From positions 3,125 through 60,424 of the IMG/VR virus record IMGVR_UViG_3300000115_000013: a stretch of DNA of 57,300 nt; one strand, given 5' to 3'. Shown here one piece after another: positions 2,845 through 56,504 of the stretch. The position numbers and the translations under genes were made by a program. This DNA is from a virus. Position 1 is the stretch's first letter; each line of letters starts with the position of its first letter. A model generated the notes under the pieces. That model was not told the DNA's origin and made no database searches. It was given only the letters and a program-made list of their open reading frames with translations.

Positions 2845-3142
2845 TCATATCTCCTTGCAACTTCTTTGTGATGTATTCTTCCCGAGTATAGATCATTCGC
2901 CAAGCGGTGCCTTTAATTGGCACTGCGCCATTCATATCCATAGTTATAGCGTATTCGTAGTAAGATGTCAACCAAATAAACTTGTCGTTACCATCGCTAC
3001 GCTTTGGTAACCAAGCAAAATATTTAGTCCAACAACTTTGTAAATCAGTGTACGCACTAACATGTTTCATATCTAAATACTCTATACTATTTGCATCTTG
3101 ACTTTGCCAAGATCTTAATCTTCGTGCTACTTGTCTCGACAC
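2837..3142 (-). CDS. Conserved small protein between primase and helicase genes
   Basis: An aromatic-rich protein of 101 residues if translation starts at the GTG at 3142. That start overlaps the primase 3' end by 56 bases. An alternative ATG at 3070 would give 77 residues and no overlap. Neither start has a good Shine-Dalgarno sequence, and I prefer the longer form only weakly. It ends inside the helicase start (ATGAATGA), so it is coupled to gp41. Motifs such as TKYFAWLPKR and a C-terminal Trp/Tyr-rich part are visible, but no known domain. A role linked to the primosome is suggested by position only. Confidence 0.65.
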   Translation of the reverse strand: MSRQVARRLRSWQSQDANSIEYLDMKHVSAYTDLQSCWTKYFAWLPKRSDGNDKFIWLTSYYEYAITMDMNGAVPIKGTAWRMIYTREEYITKKLQGDMNE

Positions 3143-5311: not shown

Positions 5312-6051
5312 TTCTTTTGAGGATCAACTGTTTTAAGCCGTCTAGCAGTCTGTTTTTCAGCAGCGTGTAGAAGTAATCCACGTCTAATACCATCCGATTT
5401 ATTGGGCATACTACTGTGCAAAACTCGTGGATGCCAGCATACAAAACTTCCTTTAGGTGCAGTATGTTGTTTATAATTATCCTGAAAGAATATATCAAAA
5501 TGTGCATTTTTTACATATAGGTCTTGATAATAATCATAAATGTATTTGTGTGATCCAGGAACATAACCAGTTGCACCATTATCCGGTGTGAAATCACATA
5601 GCATTACCATAAACTGTAATCCTAATAATCCTTTTGCATATTTAAATTCTTTAAATCTATACGGTGTATCAATGTGTGGTCTAATAAAGTTCATGCCAGG
5701 ATGTAACACAATAAAGTCACACATATACCATTCCCAATTATTTTCTCCAAATGCAGCATCTGCACATTTACCTAACTCAGGCTTAATAATATTGTCAATA
5801 AAATTGTTGCCCTTGGGTTCAGCTGTCCAGAAGTAAGCCCAATCAATTTCGTTATGTGGATTTTTACCTTTTTCAATTTGTTCAGAAATCTGATTCCAGC
5901 CCCACCACTTTAGATCTTTTGTATGTCCACGCTCAGGTGCAAATGTACTTGCGTATTGATTGAGTTCAGAAATACAATCTTTATCAAACACATCTTGATG
6001 TACAGTGAACCCCACATCATTGATGTCATCTACAAATCTAGTTTGATTCAT
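5290..6051 (-). CDS. Phytanoyl-CoA dioxygenase (PhyH) family 2OG-Fe(II) oxygenase
   Basis: A 253-residue non-haem iron, 2-oxoglutarate-dependent oxygenase. The facial triad is visible as HIDTP (His-X-Asp, around residues 127-129) and a distal His in HPRVLHSSMPN. An Arg for 2-oxoglutarate follows in IRRGLLLH. GYVPGSHK between them is a typical PhyH segment. Such enzymes hydroxylate small molecules, lipids or modified bases; the phage substrate is unknown. It sits two bases downstream of the mini-DnaE gene, at the end of a minus-strand series. Family call is strong; the role is open. Confidence 0.85.
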   Translation of the reverse strand: MNQTRFVDDINDVGFTVHQDVFDKDCISELNQYASTFAPERGHTKDLKWWGWNQISEQIEKGKNPHNEIDWAYFWTAEPKGNNFIDNIIKPELGKCADAAFGENNWEWYMCDFIVLHPGMNFIRPHIDTPYRFKEFKYAKGLLGLQFMVMLCDFTPDNGATGYVPGSHKYIYDYYQDLYVKNAHFDIFFQDNYKQHTAPKGSFVCWHPRVLHSSMPNKSDGIRRGLLLHAAEKQTARRLKTVDPQKNQSLRTS

Positions 6052-6052
6052 A

Positions 6053-6607
6053 TTAATATCCTAACTGTTCGCATATAAGATTTATATGCACGATAACTGC
6101 CATTGCATAACTTACTGCATGGGCTTTTTTAAAATAATAGTCATTATTTTTTGGCTTTAGCCAAACGTGTTCCATTATATACGGCCAAGGCTTGTTTGCC
6201 AGGTGTCTTTTCGCTGGTCGTATAATCGCTAGTGCTGCCGCCAATTGTTCTACCGATTGCGGCTTCAATTGTTTTAAGAGCATATCGTGCCCTGACAGAT
6301 GAAATACTTTGTCGACGAAGTCCTTGTGCTCCAGTAGTTGCCATACTGTTTCCCTTTCTATTAAATGCGTCAAGTGGTCATCATCATTGACGTCTTTATA
6401 TATACTAACATTTAACATATCAAGTTTAAAAAATCCAGCTTCGTCTGCTTTTGTGTGTTCAACAGTACACAAGCCAGTAAATGGATCTGTTGGAACATTA
6501 TGAAAGTACACACCTGTATTATGTTTTTTGTTCTTAAGCCTAGCTGGTGTGTTCCTAAGAACATCTAACGCTAACTGTCTATCTGCAAAATCAATATCAA
6601 TATCCAT
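6053..6607 (-). CDS. Miniature DnaE-like protein (DNA polymerase III alpha palm fragment)
   Basis: A 184-residue protein that reads as a shortened DnaE palm. It starts MDIDIDFADR, matching the PDxDxDF motif that carries two catalytic Asp of Pol III alpha. FKLDMLNVSIY (Asp63) matches the third catalytic Asp motif (KFDFLGLxT). VFHLSGHDMLLKQLKP then AALAIIRP matches VFQLES...LIKRLxP...ALxRP. YYFKKAHAVSYAMA near the end matches YGFNKSHxxAYA. PHP, thumb and most finger and beta-binding regions are missing. It overlaps the zinc-finger gene by one base and shares the replication gene series. Whether it polymerises, or regulates or mimics a polymerase, is unknown. It may be a family trait of marine T4-like phages rather than a recent truncation. 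Confidence 0.75.
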   Translation of the reverse strand: MDIDIDFADRQLALDVLRNTPARLKNKKHNTGVYFHNVPTDPFTGLCTVEHTKADEAGFFKLDMLNVSIYKDVNDDDHLTHLIERETVWQLLEHKDFVDKVFHLSGHDMLLKQLKPQSVEQLAAALAIIRPAKRHLANKPWPYIMEHVWLKPKNNDYYFKKAHAVSYAMAVIVHINLICEQLGY

Positions 6608-7320
6608 TAAAATTTAATTCCATCTATCATTTCTTCTACAAAATATGCATCTTTAGGATTCATTGTTCTTTTATTCCCCCAATAATCTGCATCTATACAA
6701 TTAGCAATTCTCTCGAAACATTCACTTGGCATATTACCTAGTGCGGTTTGTGCTCGTTGACTACATATTATAATCCAAGGAGATATTTTTCCACCCTCGA
6801 TCCAATCTGCAATTAAGTAACCGCTTGCACGTTCCCAAAATTCTTCAAAGTACCCAGTGGCTATAGCATACTCAACAAAACGTTCTAATGCACGTTCTAC
6901 ACTTTCACGTTTAACAAAGTCTTTGATAAACATTAAATAAAAACGTTCACTTGCCCAATCACGTAATTTAACTTCTTTATTTATTAGCCATCTAGTATAT
7001 GCTTCAATATCAATAACATTACTATTATAGCACCAGTTTCCGTATTTAATAAACGCTGTATAGTATTGGCTATCTACAAAAGACTTGTAATCTTTTCCTT
7101 TGCTTCCCATACTAATACGATAAAATAAATCAAATGCTGAAAACCCTGCAAGTGTTTCCTTATCGTCTTTTTGTTGCCAACGCCTCTTTTTCTCACAACT
7201 ATGAGCTAACATAGTTCCTTCTCTTTTAAAACTTTTATTACAGTATTCGCACTTAAATGCACCAGGAGTATTTTTTATAGATCCTGCCAACGCAACTAAC
7301 TCCTCTGCACTAATATTCAT
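6607..7320 (-). CDS. C2H2 zinc-finger phage protein
   Basis: A 237-residue protein with an N-terminal zinc finger: CEYCNKSF then LAHSCEKKRRW (residues about 24-45, Cys-Cys-His-Cys/His type). A helical, aromatic-rich domain follows with FDLFYRISMGSKGK and FIKYGNW. I recognise the layout from conserved proteins of marine T4-like phages, located beside clamp-loader and replication genes. It overlaps the upstream gene by 4 bases (ATGA) and the mini-DnaE gene by one base, so the three are likely translated together. A DNA- or RNA-binding role in replication is inferred. Confidence 0.7.
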   Translation of the reverse strand: MNISAEELVALAGSIKNTPGAFKCEYCNKSFKREGTMLAHSCEKKRRWQQKDDKETLAGFSAFDLFYRISMGSKGKDYKSFVDSQYYTAFIKYGNWCYNSNVIDIEAYTRWLINKEVKLRDWASERFYLMFIKDFVKRESVERALERFVEYAIATGYFEEFWERASGYLIADWIEGGKISPWIIICSQRAQTALGNMPSECFERIANCIDADYWGNKRTMNPKDAYFVEEMIDGIKF

Positions 7321-8375: not shown

Positions 8376-8879
8376 TTACCAAAGGTCTTCTGTACTCAGT
8401 ACATCAGGTACCTTGTTGGTGTCTTTTACAAAGTAGGCACATTGTGGATTGTCGCCTTCTTCAAGTGGAATTGCAAGGATATGCCCAAACTTTAGTTTGG
8501 GGAAATACCACTTGACTTCCTGATACAAGTTAACAATTTCAACTTGATCAAAGCTCGGTAGGAACCCAGTAATTGGATTAAAAACAAATGCTTTAAATCC
8601 TCTATCATTTAAGCTAGTAACTGGTAATATTTCTGGATCACCTACCATTGGGTCACATACAATTAAACTCCAATCTAATGGTATTTTAACAGTACGTTGT
8701 CCAATCTTTAAAACTGCGGCTGGGCTATTAAAACTTTCTAAGAATACCAATGGCACAAAAATATAATCAGCATTTTTTGCATCACTATAATCTAATACAC
8801 AGTAACGTATGTCGTCGATTTCTTCTGGTACGAAATCTAAATCATACATTTGATTTTCCACAGTTAGTATTTTTGTCAT
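8376..8879 (-). CDS. Conserved protein encoded after UvsW
   Basis: A 167-residue protein. Segments such as NPITGFLPSF, VEIVNLYQEVKWYFPKLK and AYFVKDTNKVPD match what I recall of the conserved hypothetical protein placed directly after UvsW in marine T4-like phages. It is mostly beta-strand with no catalytic motif. It overlaps the uvsW stop by 4 bases (ATGA). The fixed synteny suggests a function tied to recombination-dependent replication or to late transcription, but this is unproven. Confidence 0.75.
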   Translation of the reverse strand: MTKILTVENQMYDLDFVPEEIDDIRYCVLDYSDAKNADYIFVPLVFLESFNSPAAVLKIGQRTVKIPLDWSLIVCDPMVGDPEILPVTSLNDRGFKAFVFNPITGFLPSFDQVEIVNLYQEVKWYFPKLKFGHILAIPLEEGDNPQCAYFVKDTNKVPDVLSTEDLW

Positions 8880-10330
8880 TTATAATTCACCTTTTCTATA
8901 TGAAAGGGATACTTGGCTTCTCGATAAAATTTCTTTCGCTCAGTCAAATGTCTCTTGCTAAATTTTGCACTACTCGTTATATCCCAGATTTGAACACTGT
9001 CTTTATCTTGTGCTTTTCGAATACCTCTACCGATACTTTGAATTACACGAACAAAAGATTTTCCAGGTTCAAAAAGGACTAAATTAAAAATCCTAGGGAT
9101 GTTAATACCAACAGCGGCAACCCCATAGGTTGCAACGATAATTTTACCAGTTGCATCAGCTACTTCATCATATTCGTCTTTTCTATCCTTACTTTTCATA
9201 CTACCACTAATAAACACAACATCATCTCCCAGTCGTTCAACTAGTCCTTCACCTGCTTTGATTCTGTCAACTAATACAAGTGTATTTCCTGACTCGGACA
9301 TTGTTTTAATAATACCTGACATATAGTCTAATCGTTCTTTATTAGTAGTTAAGTAAGTAAGCTCACTTTGATAATCGCCATACGCTACAGTATCCTGAAG
9401 TTGTAATACATTAACTTCACATTGTGCTAGCACACCCATGTCTTGTAATTCAGCTGCACTAAGTTTATTTACCACTTCCCCCAAACTTACCTCTAAGCTC
9501 AGTCGTTCAAGTTCTGCTTTGGGTATTGTACCAGTTAACCCCCAACGTATTGGAACATTACTAAATGCACCTGTTAGTAGTTTTTTAAGTACATCTGCTT
9601 TTGCTTGGTGTACTTCGTCTACCATAACACATACTACACCTTCTGCAAATGCATGCAACCCCCAGTCTTGTTCACCATCACGGAAACGCTTTTCCATAAT
9701 GTTTAAACTTTGCCAAGTACAAATGGTATGTGTTTTACCAAACTCTTTACGGTCACCAAAGTACACACCTACATCTAAACCTAAGTTAATGTAGTCAGCT
9801 TCTGTCTGTGTTACTAGATCCTTGTTGGGCACGATAACAATACTGCGTCCGTATGCTTCAATTTTGTAACTCAGAGCCGCTGTAATTAAGGTCTTGCCTG
9901 CACCTGTGGCAATCTCTTGTAAACATTGTGGTGTTTGTAAAAACTGATTAATTATCTCAACCTGATAGTCTCTGAGTGTAATAGGCTGACCAGCCGCTGG
10001 ATGTTTATCTGGCCATACTCTATCTGAAAACAATTCTTCTGTTACTAATTCAAAAGACAAATCATGAGCTTCACGTTCGTCTTGTATTTCAATTTCATAA
10101 CCCTCATTTTGAATAATTGGCAAACACTTGGGAAGGCAACTAATAAATGTATTTCCTCCCATAGTAAAATACCCAACACAACCATCCCAACGTCCTAGTT
10201 TGTAAGCAGGAACATGTCTGGCATGTGGCAACATAAATTTAAGTTCTTTTTCTAACTTCTTACGAGTGCTGAGCTCAAGACCTTCAAACTTACAATTTAC
10301 TTCGTCTTTGATAATCAGTTTAGTTTTCAT
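8876..10330 (-). CDS. uvsW: UvsW-like RNA/DNA helicase
   Basis: Superfamily 2 helicase that in T4 unwinds R-loops and recombination intermediates and shifts replication from origins to recombination. It has 484 residues. Motif I is ATGAGKTLIT (around 141-150), motif II VDEVHQ, motif III LTGT, and motif VI QSIGRGIR. The N-terminal about 100 residues form the small UvsW-specific domain. A TATAAT hexamer ends six bases before the ATG, so its mRNA is predicted to be leaderless. Confidence 0.93.
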   Translation of the reverse strand: MKTKLIIKDEVNCKFEGLELSTRKKLEKELKFMLPHARHVPAYKLGRWDGCVGYFTMGGNTFISCLPKCLPIIQNEGYEIEIQDEREAHDLSFELVTEELFSDRVWPDKHPAAGQPITLRDYQVEIINQFLQTPQCLQEIATGAGKTLITAALSYKIEAYGRSIVIVPNKDLVTQTEADYINLGLDVGVYFGDRKEFGKTHTICTWQSLNIMEKRFRDGEQDWGLHAFAEGVVCVMVDEVHQAKADVLKKLLTGAFSNVPIRWGLTGTIPKAELERLSLEVSLGEVVNKLSAAELQDMGVLAQCEVNVLQLQDTVAYGDYQSELTYLTTNKERLDYMSGIIKTMSESGNTLVLVDRIKAGEGLVERLGDDVVFISGSMKSKDRKDEYDEVADATGKIIVATYGVAAVGINIPRIFNLVLFEPGKSFVRVIQSIGRGIRKAQDKDSVQIWDITSSAKFSKRHLTERKKFYREAKYPFHIEKVNYK

Positions 10331-18951: not shown

Positions 18952-19374
18952 TTAAAGTTTTTCTATTCTTTTTTCGTGTCTGCCACCTTCAAATTCTGTA
19001 GTGAGAAAGGTGTCAACTATGTTAATAATCCAAGCTGGATCAGTTACTCTAGCACCCAAACATAATACATTTGCATTGTTATGCTGTCTTGTAAGCATTG
19101 CAGTATGTGTATCTTTACAAAGCCCTGCACGAATCTTTGGATTACGATTAGCTGTCATACTCATACCAATACCTGTGCCGCACACTAGGATACCAAAGCC
19201 TGCGCCGCCATCCGCTACAAGTTCACATACACCTTTAGCAAAGTCTGGGTAGTCACAACTTTCCTCACTATCACAACCCCAATCTCGAACATTGTGTCCT
19301 TGGTCCATTAACCATTCACTAATTGCTTGTTTTGTTTTGTAACCTCCATGATCACTTGCTATTGTTATAATCAT
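18952..19374 (-). CDS. rpiB: Ribose-5-phosphate isomerase B (RpiB)
   Basis: A 140-residue RpiB/LacAB family isomerase interconverting ribose 5-phosphate and ribulose 5-phosphate. ASDHGGYKTK is the family start. GCDSEESCDYPDFA follows, then GILVCGTGIGMSMTANR with catalytic Cys65, and RQHNNANVLCLGAR with His98. The end FEGGRHEKRIEKL is also typical. It overlaps the next gene by 4 bases (ATGA). It probably supports nucleotide synthesis by supplying ribose 5-phosphate from pentose-phosphate intermediates. A role with other sugar phosphates is possible. Confidence 0.92.
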   Translation of the reverse strand: MIITIASDHGGYKTKQAISEWLMDQGHNVRDWGCDSEESCDYPDFAKGVCELVADGGAGFGILVCGTGIGMSMTANRNPKIRAGLCKDTHTAMLTRQHNNANVLCLGARVTDPAWIINIVDTFLTTEFEGGRHEKRIEKL

Positions 19375-48098: not shown

Positions 48099-49499
48099 AT
48101 GGCGTATGAAAAATCAAAAATATCAACTGTACCATATTTTTATGATAAACAACTGCGAAGATATATTCAGCAATTTATTCGTATATTTGGTGGATTTCAA
48201 ATAGCAGTACACACTAATAGTGAAGGTAATCTTGTTTATCAAACAGTGCCTGTTAGATACGGTGATGTTAACCGTATGGCTGCACATATTGTAAAGGAAA
48301 ATAGTGAAAACACTATGAATAGTACTCCTTTTATAAGTTGTTATGTTACTGGATTAGAGACTGCACCACAAAGTAGAACTTATTCTCAATTTGAAGAAAC
48401 TGTTCCAGTTTATGAAAAAAAATATAATGAAGTTACTGGAAGTTATGAAAATGAAGTAGGAAACGTATATAGTATTAAAAGACACCAACCAGTTCCTTAT
48501 ACACTTACTATGCAAGTTGATTTATGGACTAGTAATACTGAGCAAAAGCTACAAATATTAGAACAAATACTTGTATTATTTAATCCAACACTTAATATAC
48601 ACACGTCTGATAATCCATTAGATTGGAGTAGTTTAAGTTACGTTGAATTAATCAGTAGTACGTGGAGCATGAGAACTATACCAAGTGGCATTGATGATAT
48701 TATTGATATTAGTACACTAACATTTCAACTACCTATTTTAATTAATCCTCCAGCTAAAGTTTTAAAAAATACAGTTATACATACCATTATTGATAATATT
48801 GAAGATGTTACTAGTAGTGATTTAGATTCTATTAGAGCAGGCGGGAGTTATTCACCATTGTTTACTAGTTATAAAATTATAACTCTAGACAATTATAAAA
48901 TGAAATTTTTAGTTGACAATGCAGGAAATGCCACAGCTCAGTTATTGAACAGAGACACTAGTGCAACAGACAATAATGCACAGATATTAAATTGGGTATC
49001 AATTTTTAAACCATATGGTGAATTCAGAGATAGTATAAGCCAAATTAGATTAAAACAAACTACTGACCCATCTAATACTGCTGATGATATAATTGGTAAT
49101 ATTGTTGTTAATACTGGAAATTCAAATCTACTTAACATTACATTAGACATCGATACACTACCAGCTAACACACAAGGTATTGTAGATGCCGTAATTAATC
49201 CACAAGCTAACTTTCCTGGTGATGGAACGTTAACCGCCGCAGCTGACAATGATAGATATTTGTTAACATCTGATGTAGCTGGAGGAAGTGGTTGGGGCGG
49301 CATTATAGCAACGAAACATGATATTATACAGTACAATGGAAGTAATTGGAGTGTTGTATTTGATGCTAGTCTAAATGGTACAACAGTACAACATATAACA
49401 AATACTACAACTGGCGATAAACTTAAATGGAATGGATCAGAATGGGTTAATGCGTTTGAAGGAACATACAATCCTGGCTTCTGGCGAATATATATGTAA
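48099..49499 (+). CDS. 15: Tail sheath stabilizer gp15-like with fibre-type C-terminal extension
   Basis: A 466-residue protein. PYFYDKQLRRYIQQFIRIFG, then VPVRYGDVNRMAAHIVKENS and STPFISCYVTGLETAPQSRT match T4-like gp15, which caps the tail tube and sheath. T4 gp15 has 272 residues. The extra C-terminal part includes AAADNDRYLLTSDVAGGSGW and YNGSNWSVVFDASLNG, a domain usually found in phage fibres and structural proteins. It overlaps the Nudix gene start (TAATG). Confidence 0.8.
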   Translation: MAYEKSKISTVPYFYDKQLRRYIQQFIRIFGGFQIAVHTNSEGNLVYQTVPVRYGDVNRMAAHIVKENSENTMNSTPFISCYVTGLETAPQSRTYSQFEETVPVYEKKYNEVTGSYENEVGNVYSIKRHQPVPYTLTMQVDLWTSNTEQKLQILEQILVLFNPTLNIHTSDNPLDWSSLSYVELISSTWSMRTIPSGIDDIIDISTLTFQLPILINPPAKVLKNTVIHTIIDNIEDVTSSDLDSIRAGGSYSPLFTSYKIITLDNYKMKFLVDNAGNATAQLLNRDTSATDNNAQILNWVSIFKPYGEFRDSISQIRLKQTTDPSNTADDIIGNIVVNTGNSNLLNITLDIDTLPANTQGIVDAVINPQANFPGDGTLTAAADNDRYLLTSDVAGGSGWGGIIATKHDIIQYNGSNWSVVFDASLNGTTVQHITNTTTGDKLKWNGSEWVNAFEGTYNPGFWRIYM

Positions 49500-49957
49500 T
49501 GATAAGTGCAAGTGGGTGTTGCTTCTTGGCCCTTGATACCGGAAGAATAATGCTACAACAAAGAAGTAAGACTAGCAGTCATCCGTTAACTTGGAGTTTC
49601 TGGGGAGGAAAGTCTGAAAAGAAAGAACGTCCTATTGAAACATTATTAAGGGAATGTAACGAAGAAATGGGAATACTTCCTGATATTGAAAAAGTATATC
49701 CATTACATACTTTTCTTAGTGATGATAAAAAATTTACATATAATACATTCTGCATTACAGTATTTGAAGAGTTTATTCCTGTATGCAATGGTGAAAGTAG
49801 TGGGTATGCATGGGTAGGTATACATGCTTGGCCTAAGCCATTACATCGTGGTGCTAGAGCTGTATTAGAACAACCTGATATGGTTGAGAAAATTACAACA
49901 ATATATAATCGCCAAAAGGATAAACTAGACTTACCAAATTGGTTAGACAGTTTTTAA
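49499..49957 (+). CDS. Nudix hydrolase
   Basis: A 152-residue Nudix fold hydrolase. The Nudix box is GKSEKKERPIETLLRECNEE followed by MGI, matching GX5EX7REUXEEXGU exactly. WSFWGGK precedes it. Nudix enzymes cleave nucleoside diphosphate derivatives, such as (d)NTPs, NADH, ADP-sugars or capped RNA. In T4, NudE cleaves ADP-ribose and dinucleoside polyphosphates. It overlaps gp15 by one base and converges with the bilin reductase gene, overlapping by 4 bases. Confidence 0.92.
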   Translation: MISASGCCFLALDTGRIMLQQRSKTSSHPLTWSFWGGKSEKKERPIETLLRECNEEMGILPDIEKVYPLHTFLSDDKKFTYNTFCITVFEEFIPVCNGESSGYAWVGIHAWPKPLHRGARAVLEQPDMVEKITTIYNRQKDKLDLPNWLDSF

Positions 49958-50625
49958 ACTTCTGGAAATAAACAATCTTCAATAAAATGTTTAACGTCAG
50001 ATGCATCAAGACCAAGTGATTCCATAACTTTAGGCGTATGTGGATTTTGTTTTTGATAATGACAATATCTATTTTGTCTACGTTTTATTTGATCTGCATC
50101 ATTTTTAATATTAGTGTATTTAGGTAGATGTGTAAAATACATGTCTAGATTATCTAATGCCATTGTGACAACTTGGTCCATTTCTTGTATAGTTTTAACA
50201 TTACTAACTGCTACCATATGTGGTGTAAATATAGCTTCTGCCCAAGGAGGCAGTGCTCTTTCCTTTTTCCATTCTAAATTTTTAGTAGATTCTGCAAATA
50301 AATCTATCATTGGATGTGACATTGGCCAGCTAGGGCTGTAGTCATGAAATGCTCCTGTTACTTTATTTTTACCACAAATTATATCAAATCCATATATCGG
50401 TGCCGTATTATTAAAATTAGGAAAAACACAGATATGAGTCATATACAACCCTTTTGTATCTCTTGCATCTACACTATCTATATGAGCTCTTCTAAAATGG
50501 TCGCCTTTAAAAACCCTGTTAAGCCAATCAAACTCAGGGTCATCAAATGTTTCCTCACCCAACGTTGCACATTTTTTTATTATTTGTTGCTCACACTCTA
50601 TCATTCTATCCCAAATTTCACTCAT
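49954..50625 (-). CDS. Ferredoxin-dependent bilin reductase (PcyX/PebS-like)
   Basis: A 223-residue FDBR-family reductase. [20 protein letters not shown] (residues 64-83), then [11 protein letters not shown] with Asp95, are the FDBR core. [18 protein letters not shown] and the C-terminus [33 protein letters not shown] are characteristic. Asp95 fits the catalytic Asp of PcyA/PebS; the second acidic residue lies near DADQ (176-179). These enzymes reduce biliverdin IXalpha to bilins. PcyX, described from uncultured marine phages, makes phycoerythrobilin. It overlaps the ALA synthase gene by 8 bases, so both are one operon. The exact bilin product cannot be read from sequence. Confidence 0.85.
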
Positions 50626-51808
50626 ATATTATACCTTTAAGTTTATCAGCTAAATCATTTATCATTGCATCTGTATGAAACGGAGTTGGTGCAAACCGCA
50701 ATCTTTCTGTGCCCATGTCCACTGTAGGATAATTAATTGCTTGCGCATATATATTATGATTTTCTATTAATTTATCACTTATTGACTTGCACTTTATTGG
50801 ATCATTAATCATAACTGGTACAATGTGTGTGTTATTTTCTAATACCTCGATTCCATTATTATGTAATGCTATTTTTAATTTTTTAACTATTTCTTGATGT
50901 TTGTTTCGTAATTCTATACCGTTTTCGCTACGCAAGTATTTTATGGCTGCTAATGCACCAGCACAGATTACAGGACTTATACTAGTGGTGAAAATAAATC
51001 CACTTGCTACACTACGTATCGCATCTATAGCAACACCGTCTCCTGCAATATAACCGCCTTGGCAACCAAATGCTTTTCCTAATGTTCCATTAACAAAATC
51101 AACTCTGTCTTGTAGTCCTAGTTTTTCTAGATATCCTGCACCTTGTGCTCCGTATAAACCTACAGCATGCACTTCGTCAATATATGTTATTGCATTGTAT
51201 TTGTCTGCTAAATCTAAAATAGCTTCAATTTCACTTACATACCCATCCATACTATACACACTTTCAAATACAATGCAAGGGGTACCTTTTATTGATTTTA
51301 AAATATCCTCTAATTCCTGTATATTATTATGTTGGAAAATATGTTTTGGGGAACCACTATGTCTTATACCAGCTATTAAACTAGCGTGATTTTTACTATC
51401 ACTTATAAACTCAATATTTTCTACAATTTTACTAAGTGCTATTAGGCTCCATTCATTTGCGACATATGCACTAGTATACAGTAATGCACTGTTCTTTTTA
51501 TGTAGACTAGCAATTTCATGTTCAAGTGCAACATGATAATGTGTGGTACCGCTTATATTACGTGTGCCGCCACTTCCAGCACCTGTTTGACTAAGAGCTG
51601 TATGCATCGCATCACTTACTACTTTATGTTGTCCCATACCTAAATAATCATTACTACACCAGTTTACAATATTTTTAATATTATATGGTCCATACCAAAT
51701 AGCATTAGGATAATCACCACTTTCTCTTAATATGTCATTAAAAATGCGATAATTTCCAGACTGCTTTAGTTGATCAATTTTATTTTGGAAGGTTTTTATG
51801 GGTATCAT
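50618..51808 (-). CDS. hemA: 5-aminolevulinate synthase (ALAS, HemA)
   Basis: A 396-residue PLP enzyme that condenses glycine and succinyl-CoA to 5-aminolevulinate, the first step of the C4 (Shemin) tetrapyrrole route used by Alphaproteobacteria. [37 protein letters not shown] (His141), [27 protein letters not shown] (Asp211, His214) and GTLGKAFG with Lys245 (Schiff base) are all present. The C-terminal [18 protein letters not shown] is typical of ALAS and not of KBL or BioF. No N-terminal extension exists. A late-type promoter lies upstream. It overlaps the bilin reductase gene, so ALA probably supplies haem and bilins during infection. Confidence 0.95.
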
Positions 51809-51829
51809 TTAGCACCGTTTCTTTTGTTA

Positions 51830-51837
51830 TATTTAGT
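51830..51837 (-). promoter_or_regulatory. Late-type promoter ACTAAATA for hemA
   Basis: ACTAAATA on the minus strand, 21 bases before the hemA ATG. It overlaps a divergent early-type promoter region. Confidence 0.5.
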
Positions 51838-51842
51838 TTTAA

Positions 51843-51890: not shown

Positions 51891-52787
51891 ATGCATATTG
51901 TTACAGGTGCCAGTGGATTTATTGGTAGTAATATGGTACAACATTTAAACCGTATGGGACATAATGATATTTTATGTGTTGATACATTAAACAGTGAAAA
52001 AGTAAAAAATCTCCAAGGGCTCCAGTTCATTGATTTTATAAGTCCTAGTGAATTATTAACACAACAATTGGATGATTGTACATTGTGGCATTTAGGTGCT
52101 AATAGTAAAACTAGCAGTGACGACTGGGAAAGCATTTACAATTCCAATGTGGTATATACTAGAAAGCTATTGAGTAAATTTAATGATGTAGTTTTTGCTA
52201 GTAGTGCTAGTGTGTATGGAGACAATACTGATACTTCAGAGCATCCTAATAATGAATCACCTAAAAATATGTATGCTGCTACTAAAATGATGTGTGATAA
52301 TATGATCCGTTCCTCACAAAAAGGAAAGCGTCAGAGTTGGAGATTCTTTAATGTTTATGGTGACAGAGAATCACATAAAATTAAAGTTCAACAAGCTAGT
52401 CCATACACTAACTTTACACATCAAGCAAAAACTACAGGAGTTATTAAACTATTTACTAATAGTAAAGATGTATTTCGCGACTTCATCTGTATTGACGATG
52501 TAGTGAGTATAATGTATGATGTGCATGAACGCACAGATAATAACTTTATTAGTAATTTAGGAACTGGGAAAGTGTTTAGTTTTCAGCAATGGGGAGAGTT
52601 ATTGGCTAATAAGTATAATGCAGAAATAGAATATATCGAAATGCCAGACAGCCTTAAAAATATATATCAAATGTATACATGTAGTGATAATGAAAAACTA
52701 GGACATTTGCTAGATTATATTTGGGAGGATTTACGAGTACCATATCAGTTTTTAACACCAGAAGAATATATCGAGGATAATTTATGA
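51891..52787 (+). CDS. hldD: ADP-L-glycero-D-manno-heptose 6-epimerase-like (HldD)
   Basis: A 298-residue NAD(P)-dependent epimerase. GASGFIGSN is the Rossmann loop. ASSASVYGDN and YAATK (Tyr-X-X-X-Lys) form the catalytic pair. RFFNVYGDRESHK matches the HldD-specific RYFNVYGPREGHK, and FRDFICIDDV plus YIEMPDSLKNIYQMYT match its substrate-binding end (YIPFPDKLKGRYQAFT). HldD epimerises ADP-D,D-heptose to ADP-L,D-heptose for LPS core. It overlaps hldE by 4 bases. The match is close enough to prefer HldD over other sugar epimerases. Confidence 0.9.
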   Translation: MHIVTGASGFIGSNMVQHLNRMGHNDILCVDTLNSEKVKNLQGLQFIDFISPSELLTQQLDDCTLWHLGANSKTSSDDWESIYNSNVVYTRKLLSKFNDVVFASSASVYGDNTDTSEHPNNESPKNMYAATKMMCDNMIRSSQKGKRQSWRFFNVYGDRESHKIKVQQASPYTNFTHQAKTTGVIKLFTNSKDVFRDFICIDDVVSIMYDVHERTDNNFISNLGTGKVFSFQQWGELLANKYNAEIEYIEMPDSLKNIYQMYTCSDNEKLGHLLDYIWEDLRVPYQFLTPEEYIEDNL

Positions 52788-53935
52788 AAGTATTAGTGTT
52801 TGGCGATGTAATCGTCGACAAATATATCTATGGTACTAGTACAAGAATTAGTCCAGAAGCACCTGTGCCTGTTGTGACTTTTCAAGAAGAAAAAGAATCA
52901 CTAGGCGGTGCAGGACTTGTGTATGAAAACCTAAAAAGTCTAGGCGTAGATGCAACACTACTTCAAACAGAACAGCCACGTAGTGTTAAGACTAGAATAA
53001 TATGTGACGGGCATTATATTACACGTATAGATGATGATAAAGATGCAGATTCAAATGCAGTATTAGCAAATGTATTGCGTAGTGACTTCTCTCAATGGGA
53101 TTATGTTATACTAAGTGATTACGACAAAGGTGTATTAGACAATGCAAAACAAATTATTGCACATATAAACAGCCAAGGTCCTAAAGTAATTGTAGATCCA
53201 AAACGATATGCACACGACTATGAAGGCGCTTGGTTAGTAAAGCCTAACAACAGCGAATATACTAAGTTTGAATTTGACGAATGGCAGGGTAATATTATCA
53301 CCACAGACGCAGGTCACAGCGTGAGTGCTACAATAGAAAATATCGAATATACTATTCCTGTAGAACAAGTCGAAGTATCAGATGTTACTGGCGCTGGAGA
53401 TTGTTTTCTAGCTGCGTTTGTGTATGCACTTACTAAAGGTTACAGTCATAAAAAATGTTTAGAGATAGCTGTTAGTGCAAGTACACAAAGTGTTAAGCAC
53501 ACTGGTACATATGTTTTAACTAAACAGGATGTAGAACGTACTAAAGTGTTTACCAATGGTTGCTTTGACATTGTACATCGAGGACATATTGAAATGCTCA
53601 AGGCTAGTAAACAATTGGGAGACTGGCTAGTAGTAGGGGTTAATACAGATCAAAGTGTTCGTCGTCTTAAAGGTGAATCTAGACCTGTTAATAATGAAAG
53701 TGACAGAAAAGTTCTGCTGGAAAGTTTAGACTTTGTTGATGAAGTAATACTGTTTGACGAGGATACGCCACTGGAATTAATACAACGTGTACAGCCAGAC
53801 ATAATTACCAAAGGCGGCGACTATACAGTAGACACAGTTGTAGGTAACCAACTTGCAAAAATTGTGATACTACCAACTGTGGATGATTATAGCACAACAA
53901 ATACAATACAAAGGATTAATAATGACACAACTTAA
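52784..53935 (+). CDS. hldE: Bifunctional heptose kinase/adenylyltransferase (HldE-like)
   Basis: A 383-residue fusion. The N-terminal PfkB-type kinase (about 1-245) has FGDVIVDKYIYG, RISPEAPVPVV, VDPKR and the DVTGAGDCFLAA active site. The C-terminal nucleotidyltransferase (about 250-380) has FTNGCFDIVHRGHIEML, GESRPVNNESDR and ITKGGDY. HldE phosphorylates D,D-heptose 7-phosphate at C1 and later transfers AMP. At 383 versus about 477 residues in E. coli, the kinase domain is shortened. It overlaps hldD, and the cupin gene overlaps its end. GmhB at 15.3 kb supplies the intermediate phosphatase step; GmhA is not seen here. Confidence 0.93.
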   Translation: MKVLVFGDVIVDKYIYGTSTRISPEAPVPVVTFQEEKESLGGAGLVYENLKSLGVDATLLQTEQPRSVKTRIICDGHYITRIDDDKDADSNAVLANVLRSDFSQWDYVILSDYDKGVLDNAKQIIAHINSQGPKVIVDPKRYAHDYEGAWLVKPNNSEYTKFEFDEWQGNIITTDAGHSVSATIENIEYTIPVEQVEVSDVTGAGDCFLAAFVYALTKGYSHKKCLEIAVSASTQSVKHTGTYVLTKQDVERTKVFTNGCFDIVHRGHIEMLKASKQLGDWLVVGVNTDQSVRRLKGESRPVNNESDRKVLLESLDFVDEVILFDEDTPLELIQRVQPDIITKGGDYTVDTVVGNQLAKIVILPTVDDYSTTNTIQRINNDTT

Positions 53936-54287
53936 AGGCCAGCAAGATAAAGGATGGGGTCGAGAATTAATTTTTGCCACTAATGACAAATACTGTGGCA
54001 AAATAATGTTCTTTGACAAAAAGGGTGCTAAGTTTAGTATGCATTTTCATAAAGAAAAAGACGAAAGTTGGTATGTACTTAATGGTAGTTTTACGCTACA
54101 TATTATAGATACTGATACTGCTGAAATGGAAACACATGTTTTAACAAAGGGAGAAACATGGCGTAACGAACCACTATTACCGCATCAGTTAATTGCAATG
54201 CAAGATAATAGTATTATTATTGAAGTTAGTACTCCAGATAGCGTAGAAGACAACTATCGAATTATCAAAGGTGATAGTCAAACATGA
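53922..54287 (+). CDS. Cupin protein (mannose-6-phosphate isomerase-like)
   Basis: A 121-residue single-domain cupin. KGWGRELIFATND is the usual start of sugar-isomerase-like cupins. FSMHFHKEKDESWYVLNG supplies His-X-His and Glu, and LLPHQLIAM the last His of the metal site. The start at 53922 has AAAGGAT upstream; a longer frame from 53883 lies in hldE. It overlaps hldE by 14 bases. Its position implies a role in sugar metabolism, but related cupins also bind or epimerise nucleotide sugars. Confidence 0.8.
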   Translation: MTQLKGQQDKGWGRELIFATNDKYCGKIMFFDKKGAKFSMHFHKEKDESWYVLNGSFTLHIIDTDTAEMETHVLTKGETWRNEPLLPHQLIAMQDNSIIIEVSTPDSVEDNYRIIKGDSQT

Positions 54288-55018
54288 GTAAGCTATGGAC
54301 GTTTGGGGATAGTTTTGTTTCTCCAGTGAATAGATGTTATGATACAGAGCATTATCCAGAGTGGCATTGGGTTTATCAGCTTGGAAAAAAACTTGGGGTG
54401 TCAGGATTGTCTGGTGCTGCATTACCAGGGGTAAGTAATGAATGGATTTCACATCAGATAATGCAAAACATTAATAATATTAATAAGGATGATTTTATTG
54501 TTATTGTTACAACTGGTATGCATAGACGCTGGTTTATTAAAGATAAACCAACGTTATCCAATTTATATATTGTTAACTTACATGAACATATGCCGCGAGA
54601 TTCTTATCGTGCAATTGATCTTTACAAGCAAGAATTTAATGAACAGCATGAGTTTTTAAGTAAAATTTATTACGAACAATTTTTAACATGGATACGCTCA
54701 GTATTAGAACCTTACCAATATTGTTTAATACCAGGATTTGATGCTACAACATTGCATCATACTTCAAATGACATACCATTGGTAAAAGCTGATGAAGGCG
54801 AGTTTATTGATGGTTATGATAGAAAATTATTTGCAACATGGGAAGGTTGGGATAGGAGACTAAGTCATTTAAGTGAATGCAATCACGATGTATTGTCAGA
54901 TAAAATTACTAGATTTTTCAATACTAATGAACTAATAGATCTTAGCACTGAATTTAAGAAAAATTTATTTACTTGTAAGCAAGATTGTTTGGACTACAAT
55001 TTAGATATCTCAATTTAA
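54284..55018 (+). CDS. SGNH/GDSL-type hydrolase-like protein (paralogue)
   Basis: A 244-residue protein. LWTFGDSFVSP is block I with the Ser. GAALPGVSNEW is block II-like. VTTGMHRRWFI parallels the GHTMPARRWFI of the gene at 17353. SHLSECNHDVLSDKI is the candidate block V with Asn/His; here the DxxH aspartate is not obvious. It starts at ATGA overlapping the cupin stop. It ends the plus-strand heptose operon, so it may modify the heptose or another glycan. Confidence 0.7.
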   Translation: MSKLWTFGDSFVSPVNRCYDTEHYPEWHWVYQLGKKLGVSGLSGAALPGVSNEWISHQIMQNINNINKDDFIVIVTTGMHRRWFIKDKPTLSNLYIVNLHEHMPRDSYRAIDLYKQEFNEQHEFLSKIYYEQFLTWIRSVLEPYQYCLIPGFDATTLHHTSNDIPLVKADEGEFIDGYDRKLFATWEGWDRRLSHLSECNHDVLSDKITRFFNTNELIDLSTEFKKNLFTCKQDCLDYNLDISI

Positions 55019-55870
55019 TTACACGATAGAATCATAAGGAAACTTTCCTTCATATTTGCTACATCTAGGTTGTGCAGTACATTCTCTACAATGCGGTAAT
55101 CTAATGTTTACACCATCTTTTGTAGTGTTGTTTCCGTCATATGCATATCCATTTGCATCCCATTGCATGTTATTTACTTTGTGCATATGACCAACAGTCT
55201 TTACACTGTCCACAACTTTTTGATCAACTTCAGGATGGCAATTTTTATGCCAGTAACTTATTACACTTGGTATCTTCTTGCTGTCGTATTTGCCTTCTGG
55301 AGTAGTGCCAAAGAAAATAAAATTTTCACATGCACCACCATCTATCCATGCTTTACCATTCTTTTCATTAAAGTGAATAGCACTAGCTGGGCAAGCATTT
55401 ATACAATCATAACAATCTGTACATTTCTTCCACATATTGTATTGAATTTTTTTACCCTTATCAGGTATATTTGTAATTTCTGTTTTGAACCCTACCATTG
55501 CAAAATGACAATCAAAACCAAATTTGTAACTGTATACTAATGTATTTCTTGCCCTTACTCCAAGTCCGCTTAGTATAGCCGCTTCTTTATAGTTTGTATA
55601 CATTGGGTACCAACTCATAATTTTGCTTTTTTTAATTGTGTTTATAATTTCGTCGTAAAAACTATAGTCCCAACTTTCTCCAAATTTGCACATAACAATG
55701 CCATGTGTAATATCAGGAAAATGAATACCGTTTGTGAAGTCTCTGCCAAATATATGGTACTTGCCTTTTACTGGTGAACTACTAGCTTGAAACGTATCTT
55801 CACGTGAAAGATATGCCATATCCCAAGTATCATCGAATAAACTTTTGAATTCTTCAAAGTCAACTGGCAT
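55019..55870 (-). CDS. 4Fe-4S protein related to QueG/epoxyqueuosine reductase
   Basis: About 283 residues from the ATG at 55870 (a TTG at 55885 is also in frame). YKEAAILSGLGVRARNTL matches the corrin/QueG-type segment (AxxAGLGxxGxNxL). KCTDCYDCINACPASAI is a CxxCxxCxxxCP ferredoxin cluster, and C-terminal CHPEVD and PHCRECTAQPRC supply further Cys for a second cluster. QueG-type proteins are corrinoid-dependent. It overlaps the methyltransferase gene. A redox role is clear; the substrate is not. It may act in queuosine-type modification or as an electron carrier. Confidence 0.65.
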   Translation of the reverse strand: MPVDFEEFKSLFDDTWDMAYLSREDTFQASSSPVKGKYHIFGRDFTNGIHFPDITHGIVMCKFGESWDYSFYDEIINTIKKSKIMSWYPMYTNYKEAAILSGLGVRARNTLVYSYKFGFDCHFAMVGFKTEITNIPDKGKKIQYNMWKKCTDCYDCINACPASAIHFNEKNGKAWIDGGACENFIFFGTTPEGKYDSKKIPSVISYWHKNCHPEVDQKVVDSVKTVGHMHKVNNMQWDANGYAYDGNNTTKDGVNIRLPHCRECTAQPRCSKYEGKFPYDSIV

Positions 55871-56504
55871 ATTTAGATATCTCAATATAGTATACAGTAT
55901 CTTTGTGTTCTATACTGTTACTAAAATTAGTTATATGTAGATTATTATTTGCTAACATATCACTAAATGTGTCTGGATTGCTTCCTGTTACATTTTCCAT
56001 AAGCATTATTTTACCATCATCTGTTAAATAATCATTGACGGTATCAAAAAAGTCTTGATGTATTTTCCAATCTAAATCCTGCATTTTTCTCGGTTCATGT
56101 TCAGCTACTGTCAAGTCATCTCGCCAGGGTGGCACAGTAAAATTAAAATGAGGAGGATTTGCTATTATAAGATCAAACTTTTGCTTAGGTATGCGTTTAA
56201 AATTATCAGACAGATAAAATTTGCAAGGTAAGTTATTTTGTTTAATTGTTTTTGTTATTACTTGTTGTGCATCTCTACTGATATCACTAAAACTAATGTG
56301 TGTTGTTAATCCAGTTTGTAATGCAGCTAATCCAAAGTAGCCTGGTCCACAGCACCATTCTAACGCATTATAAAATTGTCGTCCTTGCGAAAAATGATGA
56401 AAGCAACTATTTGCATCCTGTACTGTTAAGTATCCATATCCATCAGTATCATCGCTGCTGAATACAGTATAATTCCCTATATTAACTGAGGTTGTCGAGT
56501 TCAA
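55860..56504 (-). CDS. SAM-dependent methyltransferase (NPPH type)
   Basis: About 215 residues. Motif I is LEWCCGPGYFGLAAL, SFSDIS-like acidic loop follows (ISFSDISRDAQQV), and IIANPPHF is the NPPY-type catalytic loop seen in PrmC/RlmG/N6-type methyltransferases. The start is uncertain. The only ATGs lie deep in the upstream gene, so I used a TTG at 56504, just inside the upstream 3' end. The target could be DNA, RNA, a protein Gln or a small molecule. It precedes the Fe-S protein gene and overlaps it. Confidence 0.75.
   Translation of the reverse strand: MNSTTSVNIGNYTVFSSDDTDGYGYLTVQDANSCFHHFSQGRQFYNALEWCCGPGYFGLAALQTGLTTHISFSDISRDAQQVITKTIKQNNLPCKFYLSDNFKRIPKQKFDLIIANPPHFNFTVPPWRDDLTVAEHEPRKMQDLDWKIHQDFFDTVNDYLTDDGKIMLMENVTGSNPDTFSDMLANNNLHITNFSNSIEHKDTVYYIEISKYAS

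Follow-up and report, generated by a model that had tools for sequence, protein, structure and literature searches.

Overlapping genes for 5-aminolevulinate synthase and a PcyX-type bilin reductase in a large PA5oct-like myophage, with haem oxygenase encoded at a distance in its siblings

We analysed a window of 57,300 nucleotides (positions 3,125 to 60,424 of the virus record IMGVR_UViG_3300000115_000013) in which two overlapping minus-strand genes encode a 5-aminolevulinate synthase (ALAS, gene alaS) and a ferredoxin-dependent bilin reductase (FDBR). The initial annotation had joined the two in one minus-strand operon, and both open reading frames, with their overlap, were recovered exactly as it had delimited them (Table 1). 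The NUDIX hydrolase gene that converges on the FDBR gene has a similar counterpart at the same place in one relative (L024). The heptose-type genes on the other side also adjoin the pair in relatives and are context outside the pathway.

Table 1. Features of the alaS-FDBR locus (window coordinates).
Feature	Position	Strand	Basis or remark
NUDIX hydrolase gene, convergent with FDBR gene	49499..49957	(+)	context only
FDBR gene, PcyX type, 223 aa	49954..50625	(-)	PF05996, 5owg, residues, structural model
8 bp shared by the end of alaS and the start of the FDBR gene	50618..50625	(-)	coordinates
Viral alaS, 5-aminolevulinate synthase, 396 aa	50618..51808	(-)	TIGR01821, alignment with PDB ALAS, tree
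T4-type late-promoter-like element AACTAAATATA(AC) (operon motif ACTAAATATA)	51826..51838	(-)	within the 82 bp between the divergent genes; about 28 nt upstream of the alaS start codon
NAD-dependent ADP-heptose-epimerase-like gene and HldE-like kinase/adenylyltransferase gene, divergent	51891..53935	(+)	profile matches

These heptose-type genes open a sugar-modification module (51891-55018, plus strand; 246-3099 in L002) with heptose epimerase-like, HldE-like, cupin, carbamoyltransferase, and possible glycosyltransferase genes, parts of which remain close to the pair in relatives. A minus-strand gene at 55019-55885 encodes a protein of 288 aa that has a weak 4Fe-4S motif, resembles the C-termini of QueG and reductive dehalogenases, and could conceivably be a redox protein.

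The identity of the first enzyme is supported by profile, structure-database and residue evidence. The equivalog-level model TIGR01821 scored 549 bits against a cut-off of 338.6, while the glycine C-acetyltransferase and BioF models scored under their own cut-offs. Matches to the ALAS structures 7x98 and 2bwn (E<=1e-119) run nearly end to end, covering residues 7-391 and 10-387, respectively, and K245 lies opposite the PLP lysine K248 of R. capsulatus ALAS, in support of the full-length synthase with PLP Lys245 that had been annotated. The haem-regulatory residues are a different matter. Counting along the alignment, His342 of the R. capsulatus enzyme is not conserved and corresponds to Lys339, and the chain is already over, at residue 396, where Cys400 would fall. 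The window ALAS is probably free of the usual haem feedback, and many viral ALAS proteins (vAlaS) are reported to lack one or both of these residues (Wegner et al., 2024; PMC11480375). In our tree the window protein falls in a clade of viral ALAS, separate from the bacterial enzymes, among which the alphaproteobacterial ones are nearest. The bacterial loci of our ALAS genome scan (L169-L231) contained neither hemO nor an FDBR gene inside the stretches examined, and no bacterial donor was therefore identified.

The second protein scored 64.6 bits with PF05996 (gathering score 31), and its top sequence match in the PDB was the phage enzyme PcyX_EBK42635 (5owg; E = 1e-59, 205 bits), with PcyA matching at E = 1e-13. 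An AlphaFold model (pLDDT 86, pTM 0.86) matched PcyA (TM 0.77) and PcyX (TM 0.71/0.86) with E about 1e-11, as well as the folds of PebA, PebB, and PebS, which places the protein inside the FDBR fold that its annotation presupposed. The residues H48, D50, H64 (H88 of PcyA), and D81 (D105 of PcyA) are present. D50 aligns with Asp55 of PcyX by our own mapping, in which the Asp55 of the published work was located by counting in the FDBR of Pelagibacter phage Mosig. This site holds Asp in the window protein and its close relatives and Glu in a more distant group (such as L044-L061) and in cyanophage PcyA. Since the FDBR tree has long and poorly supported deep branches, the subfamily was assigned from pairwise similarity and residues and topology was not used. 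On that basis the window FDBR belongs to the PcyX type. The protein had been annotated as of "PcyX/PebS type"; the first half of that label stands, given the 5owg match and D50, and the second does not. Cyanophage PebS proteins form a distant branch and have no equivalents of H64 or D50, the window protein has no PebS-like residues, and sequence similarity groups it with PcyX, so we rejected the PebS reading. Separately, three viral FDBRs (L067, L069, and L077) carry Ser, Ser, and Lys, respectively, at the product-determining Asp/Glu site and possibly make unusual products.

The most likely product of the window enzyme is phycoerythrobilin (PEB), as PcyX is active as a PEB synthase (PMC13197396; PMC11480375). 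The FDBR of phage CB_2, first classed as PcyA/X, turned out to be a PcyA, an activity tied to the absence of Asp55 (Wegner et al., 2024). By this precedent the window enzyme might instead yield phycocyanobilin, like that freshwater phage enzyme, and its best NCBIfam model is indeed PcyA, though at 88 bits it is far under the cut-off of 206. We regard phycocyanobilin as unlikely. The window clade retains the PcyX-diagnostic Asp that CB_2 is reported to lack, for which reason PEB is expected, and no other PDB sequence matches the window enzyme nearly as well as PcyX 5owg.

Evidence that the two genes belong together comes from their relatives. Scans of viral contigs found 31 in which alaS is directly followed by this FDBR gene. 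Of the 29 related loci measured, 26 share an overlap of 4 bp (ATGA), while the near-identical set that includes the window has one of 8 bp; the overlap is consistent with translational coupling. Among the close relatives compared, NG86 dN/dS was 0.04-0.07 for ALAS and 0.05-0.14 for the FDBR, values by which both genes are under strong purifying selection. Because the pair recurs in 31 contigs with a conserved overlap and dN/dS of 0.04-0.14, its coupling is conserved far beyond chance. The two genes could in principle be unrelated cargo brought together by mosaic gene exchange, and partner swapping is real: in L017, L030, and L033 a clade-mate of the FDBR gene adjoins hemO with no alaS within the stretch examined, and in many phages alaS is present with no FDBR gene within the stretch examined. 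We nevertheless consider unrelated cargo very unlikely, given that the 4-bp overlap is kept in 26 loci, that an upstream late promoter motif is kept in ten relatives, that four phages with the pair carry hemO on the same contig, and that both enzymes serve one pathway.

Two further small genes were seen upstream of alaS in relatives. A gene for a DUF454 (YbaN-like) membrane protein (L024 8407-8823, L028 129-545, and L084 2181-2597; assignment confirmed by Pfam in L024) shares 4 bp with the beginning of viral alaS, so that the operon of this sub-clade has three genes. Reading frames by eye, we also identified a conserved open reading frame of about 60 aa (MLKYI..WI.DYN...; L020 about 8690-8880, with equivalents in L010, L018, and L027) that follows the late-promoter motif and runs, in another frame, into the start of alaS. 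The window has too little room for it.

The motif upstream of the window operon supports the annotated late-type promoter beside the pair. Ten relatives carry an invariant CTATAAATATA 148-163 nt upstream of alaS. This longer motif was not found at the window operon, which has only the shorter CTAAATA form, and the promoter call is therefore weaker there than in the relatives. In a 197,947-bp sibling of the window's record (IMGVR_UViG_3300021957_004906, hereafter G004), NTAAATA words occur upstream of genes far more often than expected (ATAAATA, 27 against 1.1; CTAAATA, 11 against 1.0), a pattern that resembles that of T4-type late promoters. From these motifs we infer that the ALAS-FDBR operon is probably transcribed late.

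The initial annotation saw no haem oxygenase gene and left its location open, suggesting a search of flanking sequence. We likewise found none in the window's own 74,075-bp record. The sibling G004, whose ALAS and FDBR are 99% and 100% identical to the window's, is collinear with positions 19,250 to 74,071 of that record at 96-98% DNA identity, and it carries an intact hemO (54,033-54,557; PF01126, 78 bits) some 19 kb away from the pair. A repetitive tail-fibre gene is where the window's record breaks, at the equivalent of about 53,100 in G004 and less than 1 kb short of hemO. The open reading frame at this record end (L002 11424-13964) is tail-fibre-like and internally repeated (846 aa), with repeats that align to stretches of G004 51.6-53.1 kb which overlap one another; it is probably an assembly break or partial misassembly. 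Three other contigs with the pair (G017, G027, and G030) encode hemO genes 83-87% identical at 24-38 kb from it, so that valaS, hemO, and pcyA/X all occur in each of these four contigs. With hemO following within 1 kb of the break in the collinear sibling, the gap is very probably a contig-end artefact. The absence holds for the 74-kb record, but hemO is very probably present in the window's own phage, which would settle where the haem oxygenase lies.

Upstream of hemO, all four contigs have a TTGACA-N16-hexamer block (TATAGT or TACATT) that ends about 5-9 nt before the ATG. The block (54558-54650 in G004, and equivalents) is conserved despite otherwise differing flanks, and it resembles a sigma70 promoter that might give rise to a leaderless mRNA. 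This raises the idea of a pathway split in space and probably in time, with a sigma70-like, possibly leaderless hemO in the virion-gene region and an ALAS-PcyX operon under T4-type late control. We consider this reading rather unlikely. If true, the haem ring would be opened under host-type transcription, with haem refilled and biliverdin removed later, so that haem turnover in a non-cyanobacterial virocell would run as a programmed cycle.

Core genes identify the carrier. The terminase and sheath proteins are 57% and 48% identical, respectively, to those of PA5oct-like Pseudomonas phages, and the major capsid protein, taken from G004, is 71% identical; Sinorhizobium phage Phosso was a close second in these matches. 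By these comparisons the window phage is a PA5oct-like large aquatic myophage of the T4 superfamily, in agreement, in a broad sense, with the T4-like backbone noted initially. Membership in the pelagimyophages (Mosig/HTVC008M-like) was rejected, as the core genes are nearest to PA5oct-like phages and the terminase is only 34% identical to that of Mosig. The record is a metagenomic virus contig, for which one must ask whether host DNA or a chimaera was taken for phage. There is practically no chance of this: virion genes stand on the flanks (tail sheath stabiliser, terminase, sheath, and others), the same arrangement occurs in many independent contigs, and the ALAS groups with viral and apart from bacterial sequences. 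Host contamination was ruled out by the flanking virion genes and the viral ALAS clade.

One contig of the bacterial scan is of separate interest. The GTDB contig PBPT01000016.1 (L169; 335 kb, assigned to a Candidatus Neomarinimicrobiota bin) has a T4-type Gp23 capsid gene, a viral-type ALAS gene (6001-7194) overlapped by a DUF454-like gene, an alternative oxidase gene after these (8656-9249; PF01786, 256 bits), and PstS/PstC-like open reading frames read by eye. It probably belongs to a giant phage that was binned wrongly and that encodes a heme-free terminal oxidase close to ALAS. Such an oxidase is not a common partner, being absent from all virus records searched.

Taking together the gene identities, conserved coupling, selection, key residues, fold, and the hemO genes of the siblings, we think it likely that the pair forms an auxiliary metabolic operon serving a route in which haem is made and then turned into a bilin. 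The phage ALAS would condense glycine and succinyl-CoA to 5-aminolevulinate without the usual haem-feedback residues, and host enzymes would carry this on to haem. Phage HemO would open haem to biliverdin, and the PcyX-type FDBR, with host ferredoxin, would reduce biliverdin, most likely to PEB. With ALAS and FDBR translationally coupled and probably expressed late, the entry of carbon into the haem pathway and its exit would be driven together. The flux idea of the initial annotation, in which precursor supply is raised and haem-derived biliverdin diverted to a bilin, is a reasonable hypothesis. We infer that the benefit could lie in pigment or reductant chemistry, or in iron release with haem replenishment.

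The last of these could be the main purpose. In that case HemO would free iron, the FDBR would clear biliverdin, ALAS would refill haem so that respiration survives, and the bilin would be waste; the enzyme steps are the same as in the operon scheme above and the useful output differs. The window's record, the 198-kb sibling, and seven other virus records were searched for phycobilisome proteins (PF00502) and had none, and the absence of this family from the phage records searched favours iron. So do the surroundings of the hemO-FDBR genes of Mosig, which have four 2OG-Fe(II) oxygenase genes and a putative ferrochelatase gene as neighbours, and Wegner et al. (2024) also discuss iron supply. 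A reductase dedicated to a four-electron step and maintained by purifying selection is harder to explain as waste disposal, and the product-determining Asp/Glu differs between lineages, which suggests that the product matters. We give iron as the main purpose a credible but somewhat less than even chance. A 2Fe-2S ferredoxin (PF00111) was likewise absent from the window's record, the 198-kb sibling, and seven other virus records, with Mosig alone having one.

The reason for bilin synthesis by non-cyanobacterial phages is still an enigma in the literature. With our analysis the viral ALAS and bilin gene set, known from pelagimyophage-like contigs, reaches a lineage of large PA5oct-like myophages, and because ALAS is coupled here to the last step of the pathway, the flux hypothesis becomes directly testable.

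Several known systems share parts of this arrangement. The initial annotation noted that phage PcyX and phage ALAS had each been reported, which is correct, and implied that joining ALAS to haem and bilin genes was new, which it is not: Wegner et al. (2024) reported that aquatic phages carry alaS together with hemO and pcyA/X, in cassettes either intact or broken, and showed a vAlaS, a vHemO, and a vPcyA of the same gene set to be active. Among these, the vAlaS of phage CB_2, homologous to the window's, forms 5-ALA. Their cassettes have the same three genes as the window clade, occur in marine and freshwater phages, and include a PcyX-type FDBR in marine forms; the purpose of the catabolic genes is called enigmatic there too. 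The arrangements they name are the intact cassette, hemO and pcyA/X together with valaS nearby, and a lone valaS, whereas the window clade has an overlapping valaS-pcyX pair with hemO 19-38 kb off in the virion-gene region. A pair with distant hemO is not named in the main text of that paper, and its "truncated" loci may include such cases. Their contigs cluster with pelagimyophages by gp13, while the terminase, sheath, and capsid of the window phage are nearest to PA5oct-like giant phages.

Pelagibacter phage Mosig EXVC030M (MT647606) has an FDBR homologous to the window's (45%) and a haem oxygenase about 41% identical to that of G004. In Mosig, however, hemO and the FDBR gene are adjacent, no alaS lies in the 24.7-kb stretch read, the record gave no match in the ALAS search of our phage collection, and the phage has its own 2Fe-2S ferredoxin, which the records searched for the window clade lack. 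PcyX_EBK42635 (5owg) shares the catalytic Asp/His set with the window FDBR but belongs to another viral lineage, nearer Mosig by sequence, and the window product is predicted. Cyanophage P-SSM2, also T4-like, carries its haem oxygenase gene ho1 and PEB-forming reductase gene pebS far apart in the genome, a known precedent for a distant hemO; its PebS is of another FDBR branch, its host is cyanobacterial, and it gave no ALAS match in the phage collection. The hemO-pcyA-alaS island of Bradyrhizobium sp. ORS278, reported by Wegner et al. (2024), likewise unites alaS, FDBR, and hemO but is bacterial and has a phytochrome gene adjacent. Overall, and measured against that paper, the observation is confirmed and mostly known, the arrangement is possibly new, and the phage lineage is new.
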